From Prevotella sp. (GTDB taxonomy: Bacteria; Bacteroidota; Bacteroidia; Bacteroidales; Bacteroidaceae), in assembly GCA_017413085.1 (NCBI GenBank), contig JAFPVC010000037.1, positions 1 to 64,000 on the forward strand: a DNA stretch of 64,000 nt, given 5' to 3'. Every line of letters starts with the position of its first letter. Position 1 is the first letter of the stretch. Under the pieces are notes generated by a model. It had not been told where the DNA came from. It made no database searches and was given only the letters and a program-made list of their open reading frames with translations. Made by a program: the position numbers and the translations under genes. Below, in pieces: positions 7,262-38,628 of this stretch.

Positions 7262-7293
7262 CTTGCAGGTATGAAAATATTTTTGTAATTTTG
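7262..7293 (+). promoter_or_regulatory. Promoter of the acyl-assembly cassette
   Basis: The -7 box TAATTTTG is at 7286-7293. Twenty bases upstream is CTTG at 7262-7265, a one-base variant of the -33 TTTG element. The start codon of the first cassette gene is at 7326, leaving a leader of about 25-30 bases. Confidence 0.65.
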
Positions 7294-7325: not shown

Positions 7326-8465
7326 ATGACCATACAAATAAGAAAAGCCGATACAAAAAAAGAGATGGATGACTTCGTCTCACTGCCTCGCCGCCTATAC
7401 AGAGATAGTAGGCAATACGTACCGGACATGGACAGTGATATCCGCAATTTTTTCAACCTGAAGAAGAACAGGAGCCTGCCTTTCGCCGACGTACAGCCTT
7501 TCGTGGCATACAAGGACAACAAGTGTGTAGGAAGAATCACAGCAATCATAAGCCACAAGTCAAATGAGACATGGAAAAAGAAGATTGTAAGATTCACACA
7601 CATTGAATTTATTGATGACCCTGAAGTCTCAGAAGCATTGCTTGATGCTGTAAGCAAATGGGGACAAAAGCGAGGCATGGACGAAATACAAGGTCCAATG
7701 GGCATCACTGACTTCGACAAAGAAGGAATGCTCATAGAGGACTTCCAACTTGACGGCTGTTTCATGGAGTTTTGGAACCCTCCATATTACCGCGAACACA
7801 TGGAGGCTCTCGGTTTCACAAAGGCCGCTGACTGGCTGCAGATACGCTTTCAGGTTCCGACAGAAGTACCAAAGCGCTTTCAACGTGTAGCAGACTACTC
7901 AAAACAAGAGTTTGGAATAAAAATCCTACAAAAGACAAAAAAAGAGGTATATGAAAGCTACGGGCAGAAAGTATTCGATCTGCTGAACGAAGCCTATACC
8001 CCACTCTATGGATTCGCTCCATTCTCGCCAGAGCAGGCCGACGACGTTCTCCACACGTTCCTGCCATTGGTTGACATGGACATGGTGCCGATTGCAGAAG
8101 ACAACCAAGGCCGTTTAGTAGGTGTAGCCGTAACGTGCCGCGACTTCTCTGATGGAATACGGAAGACAAAAGGAAAACTATTGCCTCTCGGCTGGTTCCA
8201 CATACTGAAAGCAATAAAATTTGGGCACCAAGACAAGGCACAGTTGATGATTATCGCTGTAAAACCAGAAATGCAAGGCATGGGGGTAAACGCAGCAATG
8301 TTTGCACACCTAATACCTATTTATAATAGGAGGGGCATCAAATGGTGTGAAACAAACCCACAACTCGACACGAACATAAGGGAACTGTCACAGTGGAAAC
8401 CACTGAACCCAAAGACTGTAAAGCGACGCAGGTGTTGGAGAAAAGAAATAAATAATAACGCATAA
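7326..8465 (+). CDS. GNAT-fold acyltransferase-like protein
   Basis: A 379-residue soluble protein, first in a five-gene acyl cassette. The pattern matches my memory of a GNAT-fold family in which the bacterial ceramide synthase of Caulobacter was placed: LPRRLYRDSRQYVPDM near residue 20, FVAYKDNKCVGRITAI near 60, a long middle with GPMGITDFDKEGMLI and NPPYYREHMEALGF, and a C-terminal acetyltransferase-like half with VKPEMQGMGVNAAM (the acyl-CoA loop region, Q-x-x-G-x-G/N). Which acyl donor and acceptor it uses cannot be read from the sequence. The neighbouring ketosynthase and acyl carrier protein suggest acyl transfer from ACP or CoA, but this is inference. Many databases would call it a hypothetical or N-acetyltransferase. 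Confidence 0.6.
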   Translation: MTIQIRKADTKKEMDDFVSLPRRLYRDSRQYVPDMDSDIRNFFNLKKNRSLPFADVQPFVAYKDNKCVGRITAIISHKSNETWKKKIVRFTHIEFIDDPEVSEALLDAVSKWGQKRGMDEIQGPMGITDFDKEGMLIEDFQLDGCFMEFWNPPYYREHMEALGFTKAADWLQIRFQVPTEVPKRFQRVADYSKQEFGIKILQKTKKEVYESYGQKVFDLLNEAYTPLYGFAPFSPEQADDVLHTFLPLVDMDMVPIAEDNQGRLVGVAVTCRDFSDGIRKTKGKLLPLGWFHILKAIKFGHQDKAQLMIIAVKPEMQGMGVNAAMFAHLIPIYNRRGIKWCETNPQLDTNIRELSQWKPLNPKTVKRRRCWRKEINNNA

Positions 8466-8494
8466 TTCACGATGCTAAACGCATAAATAGAAAT

Positions 8495-9712
8495 ATGAAC
8501 AGAGTAGTAATAACAGGAATGGGCATTTGGTCATGTCTTGGCCAGACACTTGACGATGTACGTCAGTCACTCTATGAAGGAAAGAGTGGCATAATATTCT
8601 CACAGGAGAGGAAAGATGCAGGGTTTCGCTCTGCTTTGTGCGCCAACGTACCTATGCCAAACCTGAAGCCCATGATTCCACGTAATCTGCGTCAGTTCAT
8701 GCCAGAAGAGGCGCAGTATGCCTACATGGCAACAAAAGACGCTCTTGAGGCGGCAAAAATAGATCAGGATTTCCTTGACACACACGAAGTAGGCATAATC
8801 TATGGCAATGATTCCGTTGCAGAAGCAACAATGAAGGCTCTCGACAAATTCCGCGAGTTCAAGGACACCAGTGCCTGCGGCTCTGGTGCAATATTCCAGT
8901 CAATGAACTCTACGGTAACGATGAATCTTGCCTGCTTGTTTAAGCTGCGCGGTATAAACCTCACATCATCAGCTGCCTGCGCTTCAAGTTCACTTGCAAT
9001 AGGCAACGCATACCTGCTTATACAAAACGGTCTGCAAGACTGCGTCATCTGCGGCGGTGCACAAGAAGCCAATATGTATTCCATTGCGTCATTCGACGGC
9101 ATACAGGCATTTTCGACACGTGAGGACGAACCCACAAAAGCCTCACGCCCATTCGACAAAAATAGAGACGGACTGATACCTGGTGGAGGTGCAGCAACAG
9201 TAATACTCGAGAGTTATGAGCACGCTGTAAAACGCGGTGCACCAATACTGGCCGAGGTCGTAGGATGGGGTTTCTCAGGCAATGGTGACCACATTTCCAC
9301 ACCAAACGTAGCAGGCCCGGCGCGTTCTCTTGAATTGGCCCTGAAAAACGGAGGCATAGATCCACGACAGATTGGATACATCAACGCACACGCCACATCA
9401 ACACATGCCGGAGACGGACGAGAAGCCATGGCAATTGCACAGGTATTTGGCGACTACAAAGTTCCTGTAACATCAACAAAATCACAGACTGGACACGAGA
9501 TGTGGGCAGCAGGTGCAGCTGAAACTATATACTCCATGCTGATGATGAAAAACGGATTCATTGCCGGCAACATCAATTTCAGCGAACCCGACGAGGAAAC
9601 CGCCTGCATCAACGTCATACCTGAAACAAAAACAGCAAACTTTGACATGTTCCTGACAAACTCTTTCGGCTTTGGAGGAACAAACTCCACATTAATAATA
9701 AAGAATCTATAA
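8495..9712 (+). CDS. Beta-ketoacyl-ACP synthase (FabF/FabB-like)
   Basis: Condensing enzyme of 405 residues that would extend an acyl chain by decarboxylative Claisen condensation. The full catalytic set is visible: Cys162 in SSAACASSS, His299 in NAHATSTHAGDG and His334 in KSQTGHEMWAAGA, with the closing FGFGGTNSTL. The Cys-His-His set predicts an active elongating ketosynthase rather than a chain-length factor. It lies 29 bases after the GNAT gene and 13 before the acyl carrier protein. Context suggests a dedicated secondary acyl chain (aryl polyene-, flexirubin- or lipid-type) rather than primary fatty acid synthesis, whose fab genes are not here. Confidence 0.85.
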   Translation: MNRVVITGMGIWSCLGQTLDDVRQSLYEGKSGIIFSQERKDAGFRSALCANVPMPNLKPMIPRNLRQFMPEEAQYAYMATKDALEAAKIDQDFLDTHEVGIIYGNDSVAEATMKALDKFREFKDTSACGSGAIFQSMNSTVTMNLACLFKLRGINLTSSAACASSSLAIGNAYLLIQNGLQDCVICGGAQEANMYSIASFDGIQAFSTREDEPTKASRPFDKNRDGLIPGGGAATVILESYEHAVKRGAPILAEVVGWGFSGNGDHISTPNVAGPARSLELALKNGGIDPRQIGYINAHATSTHAGDGREAMAIAQVFGDYKVPVTSTKSQTGHEMWAAGAAETIYSMLMMKNGFIAGNINFSEPDEETACINVIPETKTANFDMFLTNSFGFGGTNSTLIIKNL

Positions 9713-9725
9713 ACATACTATTATT

Positions 9726-9965
9726 ATGACACGCGAAGAAATTATTGAAAAAGTAAACTCAGTACTTGCTGAAGAATTTGAAGTAGAAGAAAGCACTCTG
9801 ACCCCTGATGCAAGCATCAAAAACACACTGGCTCTTGACAGTCTGTCACTTGTAGACCTCGTGGCTATCATACAGACAGAGTACAAAGTTAAGATACCAG
9901 CAGAGGATCTGCCAAAGATTCAGACTTTCAACGACCTGTACGATTATATCGAAGCACACGTTTAA
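9726..9965 (+). CDS. Acyl carrier protein
   Basis: A 79-residue acidic protein with the phosphopantetheine site LALDSLSLVDL; Ser39 is the expected attachment residue. Four short helices as in ACPs can be inferred. The motif reads DSLSLVDL rather than the DSLDTVEL/DSLDxVEL of primary fatty acid ACPs, which fits a pathway-specific carrier. It sits inside the acyl cassette, with the ketosynthase upstream and a hotdog protein 6 bases downstream. Confidence 0.88.
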   Translation: MTREEIIEKVNSVLAEEFEVEESTLTPDASIKNTLALDSLSLVDLVAIIQTEYKVKIPAEDLPKIQTFNDLYDYIEAHV

Positions 9966-9971
9966 TTTGAG

Positions 9972-10382
9972 ATGGACATAAAAAAACTTATACCGCAACG
10001 CTCGCCGATCATGATGGTCGACGAGCTGTTGTGCGTTAATGGAGATGAGGCAAAATGCCAACTCACCATACGCAACGACAACTATTTCATTGACGAAGAC
10101 GGGCTCTTGGCCGAGCCTGGGTTAATTGAACACATAGCACAGTCGGCATCCGCCTTTGCGGGATATCGCGCCATTAACTCTGGAGCGACAGAACCGCCTA
10201 TAGGTTACATTGGAGAGGTAAAAAACTTTCACCTGCACCGCCGCCCTGCTATAGAAGAAGTACTCACCACGACCATTACGATGGGAGCGGAAGTGGACGG
10301 CATCACCATAATCCGTGGCGAAACCTTCGTAGATGAAGAAATCATTGCCGACACGACAATGAAAATATTTGTAAAAGAATAA
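9972..10382 (+). CDS. Hotdog-fold dehydratase-like protein (ApeP-like)
   Basis: A 136-residue protein of the FabA/FabZ hotdog superfamily. It opens with LIPQRSPIMMVDEL, like the FabZ substrate-tunnel strand, and contains EPGLIEHIAQSASAFAGYRA, the central helix with Glu53. The FabZ motif GHFPG with the catalytic His is not found; the equivalent stretch reads NYFIDEDGLL. This pattern resembles the ApeP-type partner proteins of aryl polyene clusters. It may therefore act together with the next gene, or have another role such as binding acyl-ACP. Function is inferred from family resemblance only. Confidence 0.65.
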   Translation: MDIKKLIPQRSPIMMVDELLCVNGDEAKCQLTIRNDNYFIDEDGLLAEPGLIEHIAQSASAFAGYRAINSGATEPPIGYIGEVKNFHLHRRPAIEEVLTTTITMGAEVDGITIIRGETFVDEEIIADTTMKIFVKE

Positions 10383-10388
10383 GATACA

Positions 10389-10757
10389 ATGCTATTAAAA
10401 GATAAATTCTACAAAGTTGTCAACGCAAACACTGACGACAACAACGGGACATTCACACTGAGCATACTTCCTGACTGCGATGTATATGAAGGGCATTTCC
10501 CAGGTGACCCAGTATGCCCAGGGGTGTGCAACATAGAAACCATAAAGGAGTGTACCATGATGCTCCTTAACAAGGAGCTGCGCATCAAGGCCATAAAATT
10601 ATGCAGACTGACAGCCTTAGCCTCTCCTACCATCTGCCCAGAAGTAAAAGTATCTATAAATGCCACCGACAACGGTGACGGCACGTATCTCATAGTTGCA
10701 AGCATTGCCGATGACAAGCAGCAATATATGAGTTTTAAAGGCACTCTATCTATCTGA
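10389..10757 (+). CDS. FabZ-like 3-hydroxyacyl-ACP dehydratase
   Basis: A 122-residue hotdog protein, last of the cassette. It has the canonical active-site loop VYEGHFPGDPVCPGV with His36, and Glu50 on the central helix (VCNIETIKE), so it should dehydrate 3-hydroxyacyl-ACP. It starts 6 bases after the previous gene. It resembles the ApeI-type dehydratase of aryl polyene clusters, but no ketoreductase or adenylation gene is beside it, so those steps would have to be supplied from elsewhere. Confidence 0.72.
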   Translation: MLLKDKFYKVVNANTDDNNGTFTLSILPDCDVYEGHFPGDPVCPGVCNIETIKECTMMLLNKELRIKAIKLCRLTALASPTICPEVKVSINATDNGDGTYLIVASIADDKQQYMSFKGTLSI

Positions 10758-10792
10758 CGAGAGCTTGCGACTATCTGACGAGAGGTTGTGAA
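10751..10792. repeat. 21-bp tandem duplication across two convergent stop codons
   Basis: Two adjacent 21-base copies begin at 10751 and 10772; both start TATCTGACGAGAG and differ at three of 21 positions. The first copy holds the stop codon of the FabZ-like gene (plus strand). Each copy could supply the stop of the convergent DUF4296 gene (minus strand), which uses the one at 10771-10773. Confidence 0.85.
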
Positions 10793-11670
10793 TTACCTGT
10801 CATGCCAGATTTAGTCCGCATAGAATCAACACGAAGGGAATCCTTGCGCAAACTGTCAGCAGGCATCGTTTCTTTCGGTTTTACAGGTGGTTCCGTATGC
10901 GTATGAAGCAACTTGACATTACGCACGGCGGCCAACCTCAAATGCTGCATCACACTGTTGTTTGAAGAGTCAGAACCAAGACTATGGCACAACATAAAAT
11001 ATCCCTTAATTAACTTGACATGACGCCGCGACATTTCGTCAGATATAGTAACGATGCCATGCCCGTCGCTACTCACATGAGTAGTATTAGTTGCCACACT
11101 GTCACCCTCATATACGACCACTAAGTATGCCGTAAGGTCACGGAAGCCGTCTTGAAAGATAAACTGTGCATCAAACTGCAATGCTATCCTATCCCCGTCC
11201 TCAAACGTGGAGTCTGGTTCAATAACGAATGACAATGAATTATAAGGAGCCTGTTGCATAAGTACAAACGAAGACTCTGTATTCCACACATTTGCAGTAT
11301 CAGCATCCTCACCCTGCACGCCATCGACCTTGCCACCCAAAGCAATAACGTTGCTTTGAATGCGCTCATTCAACCTGACATATATATTATGCAGCACGTC
11401 GGCATTACGACAATAATAATTAAAAGAGGAATCCCATTCTGCTTGTGTAATATCATACTTTCGAAGCACACTGGCTCTTATGCTCAACAAGTCCGCATCT
11501 GTATTGTGACCATCGCCCATTGCCTGCGCCACATGCATATCATAGAGGACGTCCTCCATATCGCCCTCTGACAACACGCCAGACGGACGCGATGGCGAAC
11601 ACGCGACAGACAGCATTGCAAAAAAGACTACTGACACAAGAAAATATAGTGATAAACGATGTCTATTCAT
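10771..11670 (-). CDS. DUF4296-containing lipoprotein
   Basis: A secreted lipoprotein of 299 residues from the preferred start. The N-terminus is a signal sequence with a lipobox around Cys24 (AMLSVACSPS). The region LSEGDMEDVLYDMHVAQAMGDG, followed by the helical segment to about residue 110, matches DUF4296, a Bacteroidetes-only domain of unknown function. The rest has mixed strands, then a Pro/Lys/Ser-rich tail. An upstream ATG at 11680-11682 overlaps the -7 promoter box, so the ATG at 11668-11670 is chosen. It is convergent with the acyl cassette, with only 13 bases between the stops. Confidence 0.75.
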   Translation of the reverse strand: MNRHRLSLYFLVSVVFFAMLSVACSPSRPSGVLSEGDMEDVLYDMHVAQAMGDGHNTDADLLSIRASVLRKYDITQAEWDSSFNYYCRNADVLHNIYVRLNERIQSNVIALGGKVDGVQGEDADTANVWNTESSFVLMQQAPYNSLSFVIEPDSTFEDGDRIALQFDAQFIFQDGFRDLTAYLVVVYEGDSVATNTTHVSSDGHGIVTISDEMSRRHVKLIKGYFMLCHSLGSDSSNNSVMQHLRLAAVRNVKLLHTHTEPPVKPKETMPADSLRKDSLRVDSMRTKSGMTGNSQPLVR

Positions 11671-11679
11671 AACCGCGTG

Positions 11680-11709
11680 CAAAGTTAATACTTTTTTTTA
11701 AAATACAAA
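11680..11709 (-). promoter_or_regulatory. Promoter of the DUF4296 gene
   Basis: On the minus strand TAACTTTG lies at 11687-11680, with TTTG 18 bases upstream at 11709-11706. The start codon follows nine bases after the box, so the leader is very short. The box decides the start codon, because the earlier ATG falls inside it. Confidence 0.65.
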
Positions 11710-11843: not shown

Positions 11844-13160
11844 ATGAAAACACCACTAGATTATAACATTGTCACCAATGCCATCAATGAAATGGGACTC
11901 GGTGATTTTTCACAGGCCACGATACGTGACCTGCAAGGACTGTCACAAACACTTGAGAAGAAGACTGGGCAGCAGATTATACACCTTGAGATGGGTGTGC
12001 CAGGACTGAAGCCGTCCGAGATAGCATTAAAGGCTGAACAAGAGGCTCTGGCCAATGGTTGCGCTACCATGTACCCTCCAAACGGCGGCATACCACGAAT
12101 TAAAAAAGCTGCATCAGAATTTGTAAAAGCATTCATCGGAGTAGAAATAGACCCTCTATGTTGCATACCTACCACAGGCTCGATGCAGGGGACATTCGCC
12201 ACATTCATGGCCATACGCCATGCAATGGACGGCACAAGCAAAGACACCGTGTTGCTGATACAACCAGGATTCCCCGTACAGGCCACACAGTGCGACGTTA
12301 TCGGGTTGAAACACACAGGGCTTGACATTCACGGTTACAGAGGCCAGGCATTAATATCAAAATTAGATGAAATGCTCGCTGCAGGAAACATCTGCTCCAT
12401 TGTTTACTCCAACCCTAACAATCCTTCATGGGTATGTTTCACAGAGGAAGAGTTGAAAGGCATAGGTGAGTTGGCTACAAAATATGATGTCCTGATACTT
12501 GAGGATTTAGCATATTTTGCCATGGACTTCCGACGCGACCTCTCCCACCCTTACCAAGCACCATACCAAACCACAGTGGCACAATACACAGACAACTATG
12601 TATTATGGATTTCTGGCTCAAAGGCTTTCTCGTATGCAGGCCAACGTATCGGTGTGACATGTATCTCAAACAAACTGTATCACCGCATATACGAACCATT
12701 AAAACAAAACTTCGGCGTAGGCGAATTTGGAAATTTCCTGTGCAACCGCCTTATGTACACACTGTCGAGCGGTACAACACACAGCGTGCAACATGCAATG
12801 GCGGCACTGATGGAAGCTGCCTGCGAAGGACGATACAATTTCCTTGATGACGTCAAGGAGTATGGCAGACGCGCCAAGTTCATGAAGGAGGTATTGCTGG
12901 CAAACGATTTCTATCTTGTATATGACAACGACATGGGTGCCCCTCTTGCTGACGGATTCTATTTCACTGTTCAATATCCGGGAATGAACGATCTCGAACT
13001 GACCCGCGAACTGATGTACTACGGCATAGCCGTATTCCCGCTTGACACGATGGGGTCTACGCAACAAGGTGTGCGTATCTGCACATCATTCTTCCAGAAA
13101 GAACAAGAGCCCCTGTTCAAAGAGCGTATAGAACTGTTCAAGGAGATGCACAAGGCATAA
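11844..13160 (+). CDS. Class I/II PLP-dependent aminotransferase
   Basis: A 438-residue fold-type I aminotransferase. Seen are the Asn of YSNPNNPSW (about residue 190), the Asp of ILEDLAYFA (221), the PLP lysine 260 in WISGSKAFSYAGQRIG, and the C-terminal Arg in VRICTSFF that binds the substrate carboxylate. The substrate cannot be read directly. The next gene, 31 bases away, is a nitrilase-family amidase; such pairs often form the glutamine (or asparagine) transaminase/omega-amidase route, which pulls transamination of keto acids forward. The start is supported by a conserved-looking N-terminus, although the promoter is very close. Confidence 0.85.
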   Translation: MKTPLDYNIVTNAINEMGLGDFSQATIRDLQGLSQTLEKKTGQQIIHLEMGVPGLKPSEIALKAEQEALANGCATMYPPNGGIPRIKKAASEFVKAFIGVEIDPLCCIPTTGSMQGTFATFMAIRHAMDGTSKDTVLLIQPGFPVQATQCDVIGLKHTGLDIHGYRGQALISKLDEMLAAGNICSIVYSNPNNPSWVCFTEEELKGIGELATKYDVLILEDLAYFAMDFRRDLSHPYQAPYQTTVAQYTDNYVLWISGSKAFSYAGQRIGVTCISNKLYHRIYEPLKQNFGVGEFGNFLCNRLMYTLSSGTTHSVQHAMAALMEAACEGRYNFLDDVKEYGRRAKFMKEVLLANDFYLVYDNDMGAPLADGFYFTVQYPGMNDLELTRELMYYGIAVFPLDTMGSTQQGVRICTSFFQKEQEPLFKERIELFKEMHKA

Positions 13161-13191
13161 GGACAATTCACGATAAAAAGCAACCCATTAA

Positions 13192-13968
13192 ATGAGAGTC
13201 TCTTTGCTTCAAACAAACATAGTATGGTCTGACCCTATTGCTAACTTCCACACGGCAGAATGTCTTGTAGAACGAGCAAAAGGGTCAGACCTTTACATTC
13301 TACCAGAAATGTGGACCACAGGTTTCGTTACCGAACGTAATGATATAGTGGAAGAAAGTGACGAACACGGACTATGCAACACATTTCAGTGGATGCGAGA
13401 TATGGCACATAAATATAATGCCGCTTTCACAGGTTCGGTTGCGTTGCGCCTTCCCGATGGAACTTGCCGCAATCGAATGTACTTCATATCGCCTGATGGA
13501 GGCGAGATATATGACAAACGGCATCTGTTCACATACGGAACCGAGGACAAAACATTCACTCCCGGTAACAAACGTGTGATAGTTCATTGGCGCGGAGTGC
13601 GTTTTCTAATGCAGGTATGCTATGACCTGCGTTTCCCTGTTTTCTCACGTAACAAAGGTGACTATGACGCTGCCATCTATGTGGCCAACTGGCCTGACAG
13701 CCGTCGAACAGTATGGGACACCTTGCTTAAAGCGCGCGCCATAGAAAACCAATGCTACGTGATAGGCGTAAACCGCGTAGGAGACGATAAGCAATGTCAC
13801 TACAATGGTGGCTCAGCCGTAATAGATGCCTACGGAAGAACAGCAGTAATGGCAAACGATGACGAAGAACAAGTGGTGACGACAACGCTCGACATGGAGA
13901 AGTTACGCAAGTTCAGAGATAAATTCCCTGTTCTAAATGACAGGGACAATTACAGTATACATTCATAA
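13192..13968 (+). CDS. Nitrilase-family amidase (likely omega-amidase, YafV/Nit2 type)
   Basis: A 258-residue carbon-nitrogen hydrolase. The catalytic triad is visible: Glu39 in ILPEMWTTGF, Lys109 in YDKRHLF and Cys143 in MQVCYDLRFPVF. The family includes omega-amidases that hydrolyse alpha-ketoglutaramate or alpha-ketosuccinamate. Its position just after an aminotransferase supports that role, but the substrate is inferred. The length is normal for the group. Confidence 0.83.
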   Translation: MRVSLLQTNIVWSDPIANFHTAECLVERAKGSDLYILPEMWTTGFVTERNDIVEESDEHGLCNTFQWMRDMAHKYNAAFTGSVALRLPDGTCRNRMYFISPDGGEIYDKRHLFTYGTEDKTFTPGNKRVIVHWRGVRFLMQVCYDLRFPVFSRNKGDYDAAIYVANWPDSRRTVWDTLLKARAIENQCYVIGVNRVGDDKQCHYNGGSAVIDAYGRTAVMANDDEEQVVTTTLDMEKLRKFRDKFPVLNDRDNYSIHS

Positions 13969-37239: not shown

Positions 37240-38628
37240 GTGTATAAGCAGAACACCATAAAAGGCAGTTTCTCACTCTGTGGAAAGGGACTGCACACTG
37301 GTCTGAACCTGACAGTGACCTTCAATCCCGCAGCGGAGAACACAGGATACAAAATACAGCGCATTGACCTTGAGGGTATGCCCGTAATTGACGCAGTTGC
37401 CGAGAAAGTGGTTGACACGCAGCGTGGTACTGTGCTTGGAAAGGGTGACAACATCCGCGTAAGCACTGTAGAGCATGCCATGTCAGCCCTCTATGCCATG
37501 GGCATTGACAACTGTCTGATACAAGTCAACGGTCCTGAGTTCCCAATTCTTGACGGTTCTGCCATACAGTATGTGCAGAAAATAAGAGAAGTGGGCATAC
37601 AAGAACAGAATGCCCCAAAGGACTACTATATCATACGCAAGAAAATCGAGGTAAAGGACGAAGAGACTGGTTCATGCATCACGATATTACCTGATGAGGA
37701 CTTCTCCATCACTGCGATGTGCTCGTTTGAGTCGAAATTCATCAACTCTCAGTTTGCGACCATAGAGAACATGGAGCAGTTCCCCGAAGAAATAGCCTCT
37801 GCACGCACTTTCGTATTCGTACGCGACATCGTTCCCTTGCTGCAGGCCGGCCTTATCAAGGGCGGCGACATGGATAACGCTATCGTTATCTATGAAAACG
37901 AGCAGTCTCAGGAGAACATTGACAAGCTATGCGACTACCTCGGCGTACCACACATGGATGCCACCAAACTGGGATACCTGCAGCACAAGCCGCTGTCATG
38001 GGAGAATGAGTGTACGCGACATAAGCTACTTGACATAATCGGCGACATGGCTCTCATCGGCAAACCACTGAAAGGACGCATCATCGCCACACGCCCGGGA
38101 CATACCATAAACAACAAGTTTGCCCGCCTGATGCGTCAGGAAATCCGCAAGCATGAGATACAGGCTCCTATTTATGACCCAAACCAAGAACCAGTACTTG
38201 ACGTGAACCGCATACGCGAAGTACTGCCACACCGTTACCCCATGCAGCTTGTCGACAAGGTTATCAGCATCAGCGGTACTACAATCGTGGGTGTGAAGAA
38301 CGTCACAAGCAACGAGCCTTTCTTCCAGGGACACTTCCCAGAGGAGCCAGTTATGCCGGGCGTATTGATGATTGAGGCTATGTCGCAGTGCGGTGGCTTA
38401 CTGGTATTAAATACGCTTGACGACCCAGAGAAATATTCAACGTACTTCTTGAAAATAGACAACGTAAAATACAGAAAGAAAGTTGTACCCGGAGACACTC
38501 TGATTTTCAAAGTCGAGCTACTTGCACCTGTACGTCATGGCATATCATCAATGCAGGGCTATATTTTCGTAGGTGACACACTTGTAGCAGAAGCAACATT
38601 TACTGGGCAAATTATAAAGAACAAATAA
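37240..38628 (+). CDS. lpxC/fabZ: Bifunctional UDP-3-O-acyl-GlcNAc deacetylase / 3-hydroxyacyl-ACP dehydratase
   Basis: A fusion of two lipid enzymes, typical of Bacteroidetes. LpxC (about 1-300) commits sugar to lipid A; the zinc ligands are seen in STVEHAMSALYAMG and RHKLLDIIGDMA, and the general-base His in RPGHTINNKFA. FabZ (about 320-462) dehydrates 3-hydroxyacyl-ACP; seen are LPHRYPMQLVDKV, GHFPEEPVMPGVLMIEAMSQ with the catalytic His and Glu. The start is GTG at 37240, as no ATG fits the conserved N-terminus. Fusing them joins the two enzymes that compete for hydroxyacyl-ACP. Confidence 0.95.
   Translation: MYKQNTIKGSFSLCGKGLHTGLNLTVTFNPAAENTGYKIQRIDLEGMPVIDAVAEKVVDTQRGTVLGKGDNIRVSTVEHAMSALYAMGIDNCLIQVNGPEFPILDGSAIQYVQKIREVGIQEQNAPKDYYIIRKKIEVKDEETGSCITILPDEDFSITAMCSFESKFINSQFATIENMEQFPEEIASARTFVFVRDIVPLLQAGLIKGGDMDNAIVIYENEQSQENIDKLCDYLGVPHMDATKLGYLQHKPLSWENECTRHKLLDIIGDMALIGKPLKGRIIATRPGHTINNKFARLMRQEIRKHEIQAPIYDPNQEPVLDVNRIREVLPHRYPMQLVDKVISISGTTIVGVKNVTSNEPFFQGHFPEEPVMPGVLMIEAMSQCGGLLVLNTLDDPEKYSTYFLKIDNVKYRKKVVPGDTLIFKVELLAPVRHGISSMQGYIFVGDTLVAEATFTGQIIKNK

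Follow-up and report, generated by a model that had tools for sequence, protein, structure and literature searches.

The 64,000-nucleotide stretch analysed here, hereafter the window (positions 1 to 64,000 of the forward strand of contig JAFPVC010000037.1, assembly GCA_017413085.1, Prevotella sp.), raises the question of what is made by five adjacent genes located between positions 7326 and 10757, which encode an acyltransferase, a ketosynthase (KS), an acyl carrier protein (ACP) and two hotdog proteins, HD1 and HD2. Judging from gene content and order in relatives, this cassette makes up the 5' half of an operon that is conserved in Bacteroidota. On balance, we lean to the reading that the operon is a reduced, non-aryl, type II fatty-acid-like system derived from flexirubin (flx) or aryl polyene (ape) clusters, and that it makes an outer-membrane acyl conjugate. 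The five genes are as follows:

7326..8465, + strand: tandem-GNAT acyltransferase, 379 amino acids (aa); Pfam GNAT above cut-off; two GNAT domains in the fold
8495..9712, + strand: ApeR-type KS, 405 aa; C162, H299 and H334; both Pfam KS domains; assigned by ApeR match and tree
9726..9965, + strand: ACP, 79 aa; Ser39; Pfam PP-binding; ApeF match, E 4e-9
9972..10382, + strand: HD1, ApeP-like hotdog protein, 136 aa; Glu53; Phe39 replaces the FabZ His; ApeP match, E 9e-8
10389..10757, + strand: HD2, ApeI-like hotdog protein, 122 aa; His36 and, in the window copy, Glu50; ApeI match, E 3e-6; Pfam FabA-like

All five open reading frames (ORFs) are intact, run in the same direction and are spaced by 29, 13, 6 and 6 bases, which bears out the tight run of genes described in the original prediction; the residues it had singled out, Cys162, His299 and His334 in the KS and Ser39 in the ACP, were also found in place. 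The profile search that it had proposed for each protein put the GNAT, the ketoacyl synthase and the ACP above their Pfam cut-offs. HD2 is barely over the FabA-like cut-off (24.0 versus 23), and HD1 gave no Pfam match at E<=0.01, the NCBIfam profiles yielding weak FabZ matches only. Compared with seven relative loci (effectively six, L063 and L089 being the same contig), the cassette has pN values of 0.045-0.28 and pS values of 0.59-0.84. In these sequences divergence looks purifying-type, and since synonymous sites are mostly saturated, no firm dN/dS ratio is given.

Is the cassette a local assemblage, or part of something larger? In a sample of 120 genomes of the genus, 35, including the window genome itself, carry a KS at least 73% identical; the operon is common. 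Stretches were taken for 32 of the 34 other carriers (all but G079 and G091), and all 32 are counted below as genus loci; 29 of them have at least 1.3 kb of upstream sequence and 21 at least 8 kb downstream. A second set consists of the best 80 of 588 loci in named genomes, from Prevotella, Bacteroides, Bacteroidales metagenome-assembled genomes (MAGs), Alistipes, Flavobacterium and others, many of them ruminant MAGs. The KS is at least 65% identical in 71 of these named loci, of which 55 have at least 8 kb downstream; in the other 9 it is 59-64% identical. Enough upstream sequence is available in 67 named loci. In a sample taken at the level of the order, a comparison of the KS by itself gave matches of at least 65% identity in 16 of the 294 further genomes.

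The order of genes in the genus loci is (AraC) - GNAT - KS - ACP - HD1 - (HD2) - MMPL - FADox - (KR) - LolA - (DUF5686), where MMPL is an exporter, FADox a CrtI-like flavoenzyme and KR a ketoreductase. In the 21 genus loci with sufficient downstream sequence, ACP is present in 21, HD1 in 18, HD2 in 4, MMPL in 19, FADox in 20, KR in 13 and LolA in 18. The corresponding counts for the 55 named loci are 54 for ACP, 42 for HD1, 31 for HD2, 37 for MMPL, 51 for FADox, 33 for KR and 30 for LolA, to which are added a 4HBT thioesterase (28) and DUF5686 (25). Comparison of neighbourhoods across Bacteroidales, which had been suggested as a check, thus shows that the linkage of GNAT, KS, ACP and hotdog genes is conserved, HD2 being variable. 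The cassette had also been described as lacking a ketoreductase and a transporter. This stands for the window locus, but each of the two is found in the majority of the operons of relatives, and these functions are therefore lacking from the locus rather than from the system. A rearranged form was seen in genome G063, where a GNAT-ACP-MMPL-FADox-LolA-DUF5686 operon has no KS (L173, G063:C38), and a cassette-type KS stands apart with an ACP (L078, G063:C7); the matching named locus, L137, has a PlsC-like gene before the KS.

From which known system does this operon derive? The proposal of a reduced aryl polyene or flexirubin module is supported both by blastp comparison with the reference ape cluster of E. 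coli CFT073 and by a tree of KSs. In addition to the ACP and hotdog matches listed above, the KS matches ApeR (36% over 405 aa, E 5e-72), and among the genes present in relatives MMPL matches ApeM (E 3e-12), KR matches ApeQ (48%, E 4e-71) and 4HBT matches ApeK (E 8e-11). For GNAT and FADox, no match to the ape cluster was better than E 0.6. The LolA of locus L071 matches the NCBIfam family LolA2_flexi (E 3e-11), below its cut-off.

A quick maximum-likelihood tree was built from 60 KSs; the long branches that ApeR, ApeO and FabF have in it call for caution. The window KS lies within a group of 24 (Shimodaira-Hasegawa-like approximate likelihood ratio test, SH-aLRT, 100). The group comprises the KSs of GNAT operons, those of L141 and L142, which have no acyltransferase upstream, and that of L137 (PlsC-like). 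It joins PlsC-type and similar KSs (SH-aLRT 99; these form no single clade), then Alistipes KSs (95), and weaker joins (88, 81, 89) add KSs from Flavobacteriaceae, from Chitinophagaceae and from contig C15 of the window genome. Support is 100 for the Bacteroidota group and 83 for its union with ApeR, whose branch is long. By its place in this tree, the window KS is allied to the KSs of flexirubin-type clusters rather than to FabF.

Kinship of the KS and parts in common with ape are also what one would expect of an ordinary cluster for aryl polyenes or flexirubins. We reject this explanation, which the gene content renders very improbable indeed. The eight ORFs scanned between 7326 and 13968 include one KS only, instead of a ketosynthase-chain length factor (KS-CLF) pair of the ApeO-ApeC type, and no methyltransferase, AMP-binding (aryl-activating) protein or ammonia-lyase. 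Likewise, apeKSa, apeKSb and apeMT have no match in the 71 named loci with a KS of at least 65% identity, whereas they match 7, 4 and 5, respectively, of the 9 loci with a KS at 59-64% (L158-L164, L166, L167), as expected of full flexirubin-type clusters. The apeAL query is uninformative on relatives, as it had no match in any of the 80 named loci, even those of flexirubin type. Finally, the window genome already holds a flexirubin-type cluster, unlinked to the cassette (C15, 45001-78533; L047, L048), with a FlxJ methyltransferase (575 versus a cut-off of 560), KSs, an ACP, an LPLAT, an MMPL and an AMP-ligase. Of the 35 cassette genomes, 17 also contain a KS that is intact and falls in the 50-60% band, so that the cassette seems to be independent of such a KS, although some of these genomes are incomplete. 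Contig C15 also carries, at L193 5934-10484, a KASIII-like gene, two ACP-like genes, an AMP-ligase-like gene and two SDRs beside glycan genes (labels mostly by eye).

A single residue was considered as a marker of non-aryl substrates and discarded. Tyr135 of ApeR is said to stack the aryl ring (available text of PMC8358021), and its position is occupied by Ile in the window KS. The two flexirubin-type KSs that were aligned, those of C15 and of Flavobacterium columnare (L162), are also without this Tyr.

Could the cassette instead serve primary fatty-acid synthesis? The window KS scores below the curated cut-offs of FabF (346.6 versus 493.75) and FabB (371.7 versus 630), a FabF above its cut-off is encoded on a separate contig of the same genome (C32), and an LpxC-FabZ fusion lies in the window itself, at 37240-38628 (695 versus an NCBIfam cut-off of 465 bits). 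A primary role is therefore rejected. The fusion contradicts the earlier statement that genes of primary fatty-acid synthesis are missing here; together with FabF, it also means that the cassette enzymes are not the only copies of their kind in the genome.

The two hotdog proteins had been taken for two dehydratases. At the position of the FabZ His, HD1 has Phe in 46 and His in none of the 51 motif hits in relatives, the search motif requiring the FabZ Glu (E53). HD2, whose search pattern required the His, has an acid at +14 from it in 16 of 32 motif hits, and H36 is invariant across 11 aligned sequences. The alignment shows a parallel in E. coli, where ApeP is without the His and ApeI has His and an Asp at +14. 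In FabZ, the catalytic His and Glu are contributed by different subunits, so that an HD1-HD2 heterodimer would hold one complete site. From these residues, HD1 and HD2 look like one composite dehydratase, with Glu from HD1 and His from HD2, and the matches of HD1 to ApeP and of HD2 to ApeI, with the same residue pattern, suggest a pair of the ApeI/ApeP type. Both hotdog proteins are thus present as predicted, but HD1, having no catalytic His, is better read as one half of a pair.

The cassette opens with the GNAT gene. The fold of its product matches tandem N-acetyltransferases; when solved structures were searched by sequence, the GNAT had no useful hit, and FADox had a phytoene dehydrogenase at the top, along with many other flavin oxidases. 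The gene immediately upstream of the KS is a GNAT in 27 of 29 genus loci; among the 67 named loci this is so in 50, at a distance of -76 to 146 bases in all 50, and the linkage of GNAT and KS therefore holds in relatives. In 9 of the 67 named loci the KS-adjacent acyltransferase is PlsC-like, and in none are both present. The PlsC-like protein weakly matches AGP_acyltrn (two members scanned). This exchange suggests that the acceptor may differ between operons.

Two other explanations of the operon involve this gene. GNATs of the CurA loading type load or decarboxylate a starter on an ACP, and the window GNAT could be such a starter enzyme rather than a finishing acyltransferase. In favour of this, the gene comes first in the cassette, whose proteins include no match to an adenylation enzyme or KSIII. 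However, its slot is taken in relatives by PlsC-like acyltransferases, a class known for finishing transfers, and its fold is that of tandem N-acetyltransferases; we regard a starter role as quite improbable. A more serious contender, though still unlikely, is that the cassette serves to remodel membrane lipids of ordinary kinds: acyl chains of primary fatty-acid synthesis would be lengthened or unsaturated by KS, HD1/HD2 and ACP, and the acyltransferase would load them on lipid A, a glycine or serine lipid or a phospholipid, without any new lipid class. The PlsC-like swap and the AGP_acyltrn match fit this scheme, as does the variable presence of KR and dehydratases, as though primary enzymes filled in, and MMPL resembles the hopanoid and sterol transporters HpnN and BstA, below cut-off. 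Against it, the exporter (37 of 55), LolA (30 of 55) and the outer-membrane-type DUF5686 (25 of 55) that are linked in named loci imply a special cargo, and the affinity of the KS is with flexirubin-type enzymes, not with FabF.

How complete is the system in the window organism? MMPL, KR and LolA were not found at the window locus. The only MMPL found in the genome is 29% identical and belongs to another cluster, and no FADox was found there at E<=1e-20. Another contig (G000:C56) encodes a FabG-type KR that resembles the cassette KR at 59%; G121 and G007 have counterparts of it at 60-61%, likewise outside their cassettes. Both MMPL and FADox are retained in the close relatives L088, L089 (= G121), L091 and L092; G007 and L090 retain MMPL without FADox beside it; and in L093, MMPL is cut to a 134-aa stub directly after HD2 (12311-12709). 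The FADox and 4HBT genes of G007 are found next to atp genes, where a contig ends. The window MAG is 79% complete, and the AtpD of a close relative found no match in it (a search without positive control); the absence of FADox may therefore be a gap.

Such observations raise the possibility that the operon is decaying in the window organism, the five genes being a remnant without product. The missing exporter, the stub of L093, the lack of FADox beside the exporter in G007 and L090 and of any FADox match in the window genome all go in this direction, as do the split KSs of G006 and of Bacteroides timonensis (L153). Yet the five ORFs are intact and their divergence is of the purifying type, and the missing half of the operon may fall in the missing part of the genome, so that we consider decay improbable.

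Some observations weigh against a non-aryl, ape-derived operon that makes an outer-membrane conjugate. The operon LolA has no blastp match to ApeL at E<=10, and HD1 occurs without HD2 in 11 of 55 named loci, which a composite site leaves unexplained. Moreover, a stepwise loss of the exporter through L090, G007 and L093 had to be dropped: in the KS tree the window KS pairs with L091, then with L088, which keep exporter and FADox, and L090 pairs with L093. In the absence of such a series, the exporter may have been lost more than once.

From the observed gene content, linkage, kinship and intact KS and ACP residues, we infer the following chemistry. The single ApeR-type KS would extend an acyl, not aryl, starter on the ACP of the cassette; a FabG-type enzyme, encoded elsewhere in the window genome, would carry out the reduction and an HD1-HD2 heterodimer the dehydration, so that a short chain containing one to a few conjugated double bonds would result. 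ApeR makes polyenes with up to four double bonds, according to the available part of PMC8358021. In fuller operons the CrtI-like flavoenzyme would then alter the double bonds. The tandem GNAT may take the chain off the ACP and transfer it to an acceptor that bears an amine, the PlsC-like enzyme of some relatives doing so presumably to a hydroxyl, and MMPL and LolA would carry the conjugate to the outer membrane. As the exporter is not at the window locus, the remaining steps would there be supplied in trans, or the product would stay inside. More speculatively, gut Bacteroidota might make an undescribed class of non-aryl, polyunsaturated outer-membrane N-acyl conjugates: the operon would have evolved from flexirubin genes by loss of the aryl starter and KS-CLF and by capture of exchangeable PlsC-like or GNAT acyltransferases, which retarget one assembly line between acceptors. 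We propose this only tentatively, and think it rather less probable than its contrary.

A near-consensus promoter had been announced upstream of the cassette, and a plausible Bacteroidota-type candidate is indeed present:

7262..7293, + strand: candidate Bacteroidota-type promoter, CTTG (7262) and TAATTTTG (7286-7293), 32 bases ahead of the first ATG

The box at 7286-7293 fits the Bacteroidota -7 box, and CTTG lies 20 bases earlier. However, TAnnTTTG sites number 67 in the window (shuffle mean 48; none of 100 shuffles reaches 67), and 24 of the 67 are paired with at least a 3/4 match to TTTG at the scanned spacings; such pairs being common, the promoter is weak evidence. A scan for sigma-70 promoters and terminators, which does not cover Bacteroidota promoters, found none upstream of the cassette on the + strand.

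On the other side, a DUF4296 gene (10771-11682) converges on the cassette with 13 bases between them, which leaves no room there for further operon genes. In G121 and G007, DUF4296 adjoins an lspA-like gene (label by eye) and not, as in the window, the cassette, a sign of local rearrangement. The cassette flanks vary as well, with nuoA in the window, nuoN in G121 and a TPR gene with small ORFs in G007 (labels by eye), which suggests that the locus has moved. Further on, at 11844-13968, a class I/II aminotransferase adjoins a carbon-nitrogen hydrolase over the PRK10438 amidohydrolase cut-off (261.9 versus 249), possibly a transaminase/omega-amidase pair.

Why does the identity of this operon matter? 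Titles and abstract openings of open-licence PMC papers yielded no description of it. The accessible text of PMC8241843 counts 2,800 clusters labelled 'aryl polyene' across 8,160 genomes from the rumen, and that of PMC12940132 describes a cluster of the arylpolyene type in Bacteroides xylanisolvens that shows flexirubin synteny. Some product-less 'aryl polyene' clusters of rumen or gut Bacteroidota, or their neighbours, may be the non-aryl variant, and the label would then be misleading. A defined operon makes the chemistry testable in cultured carriers, for instance Bacteroides sp. ET71 and An322, which each carry GNAT, KS, ACP, HD1, HD2, FADox and KR.

Among known systems, the glycine-lipid pathway GlsB/GlsA of Bacteroides, compared here by description only, is alike in that a so-called N-acetyltransferase performs N-acyl transfer in the same phylum. 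It differs in being a two-gene locus, for which the available portion of PMC12746155 describes no KS, ACP or exporter. The genes of bacterial ceramide synthase (bCerS) systems are not close together in Bacteroidota, as stated in the excerpt available of PMC11334938. If our reading is right, there would be an analogy with highly reducing type II polyketide synthases (PKSs) of the ishigamide type, which are named in the available text of PMC8358021, in that a short polyene would be built by stand-alone enzymes. These differ by their KS-CLF pair and belong to Actinomycetes. Ishigamide has an amide link, and we know of no GNAT partner for PKSs of this type.

The ape cluster of E. coli CFT073 can be compared part by part: ApeR, ApeF, ApeP and ApeI have counterparts in the window, ApeM, ApeQ and ApeK in relatives. 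In contrast, ApeO-ApeC, the ApeH aryl ligase and the ApeB methyltransferase were not found, and what is present instead is a CrtI-like flavoenzyme along with either a tandem GNAT or a protein of the PlsC-like kind. The transport logic, which combines resistance-nodulation-division (RND) and Lol proteins, appears similar to that of E. coli, where the roles of the ape transport genes are given in the accessible part of PMC8253772. Flexirubin clusters, for whose gene roles we refer to the available text of PMC3992019, have an ammonia-lyase, a coumarate ligase, the FlxJ methyltransferase and a KSa/KSb pair that the window locus does not have, but the KS is of the same lineage, and the KR, ACP, HD1 and 4HBT types are common to both.

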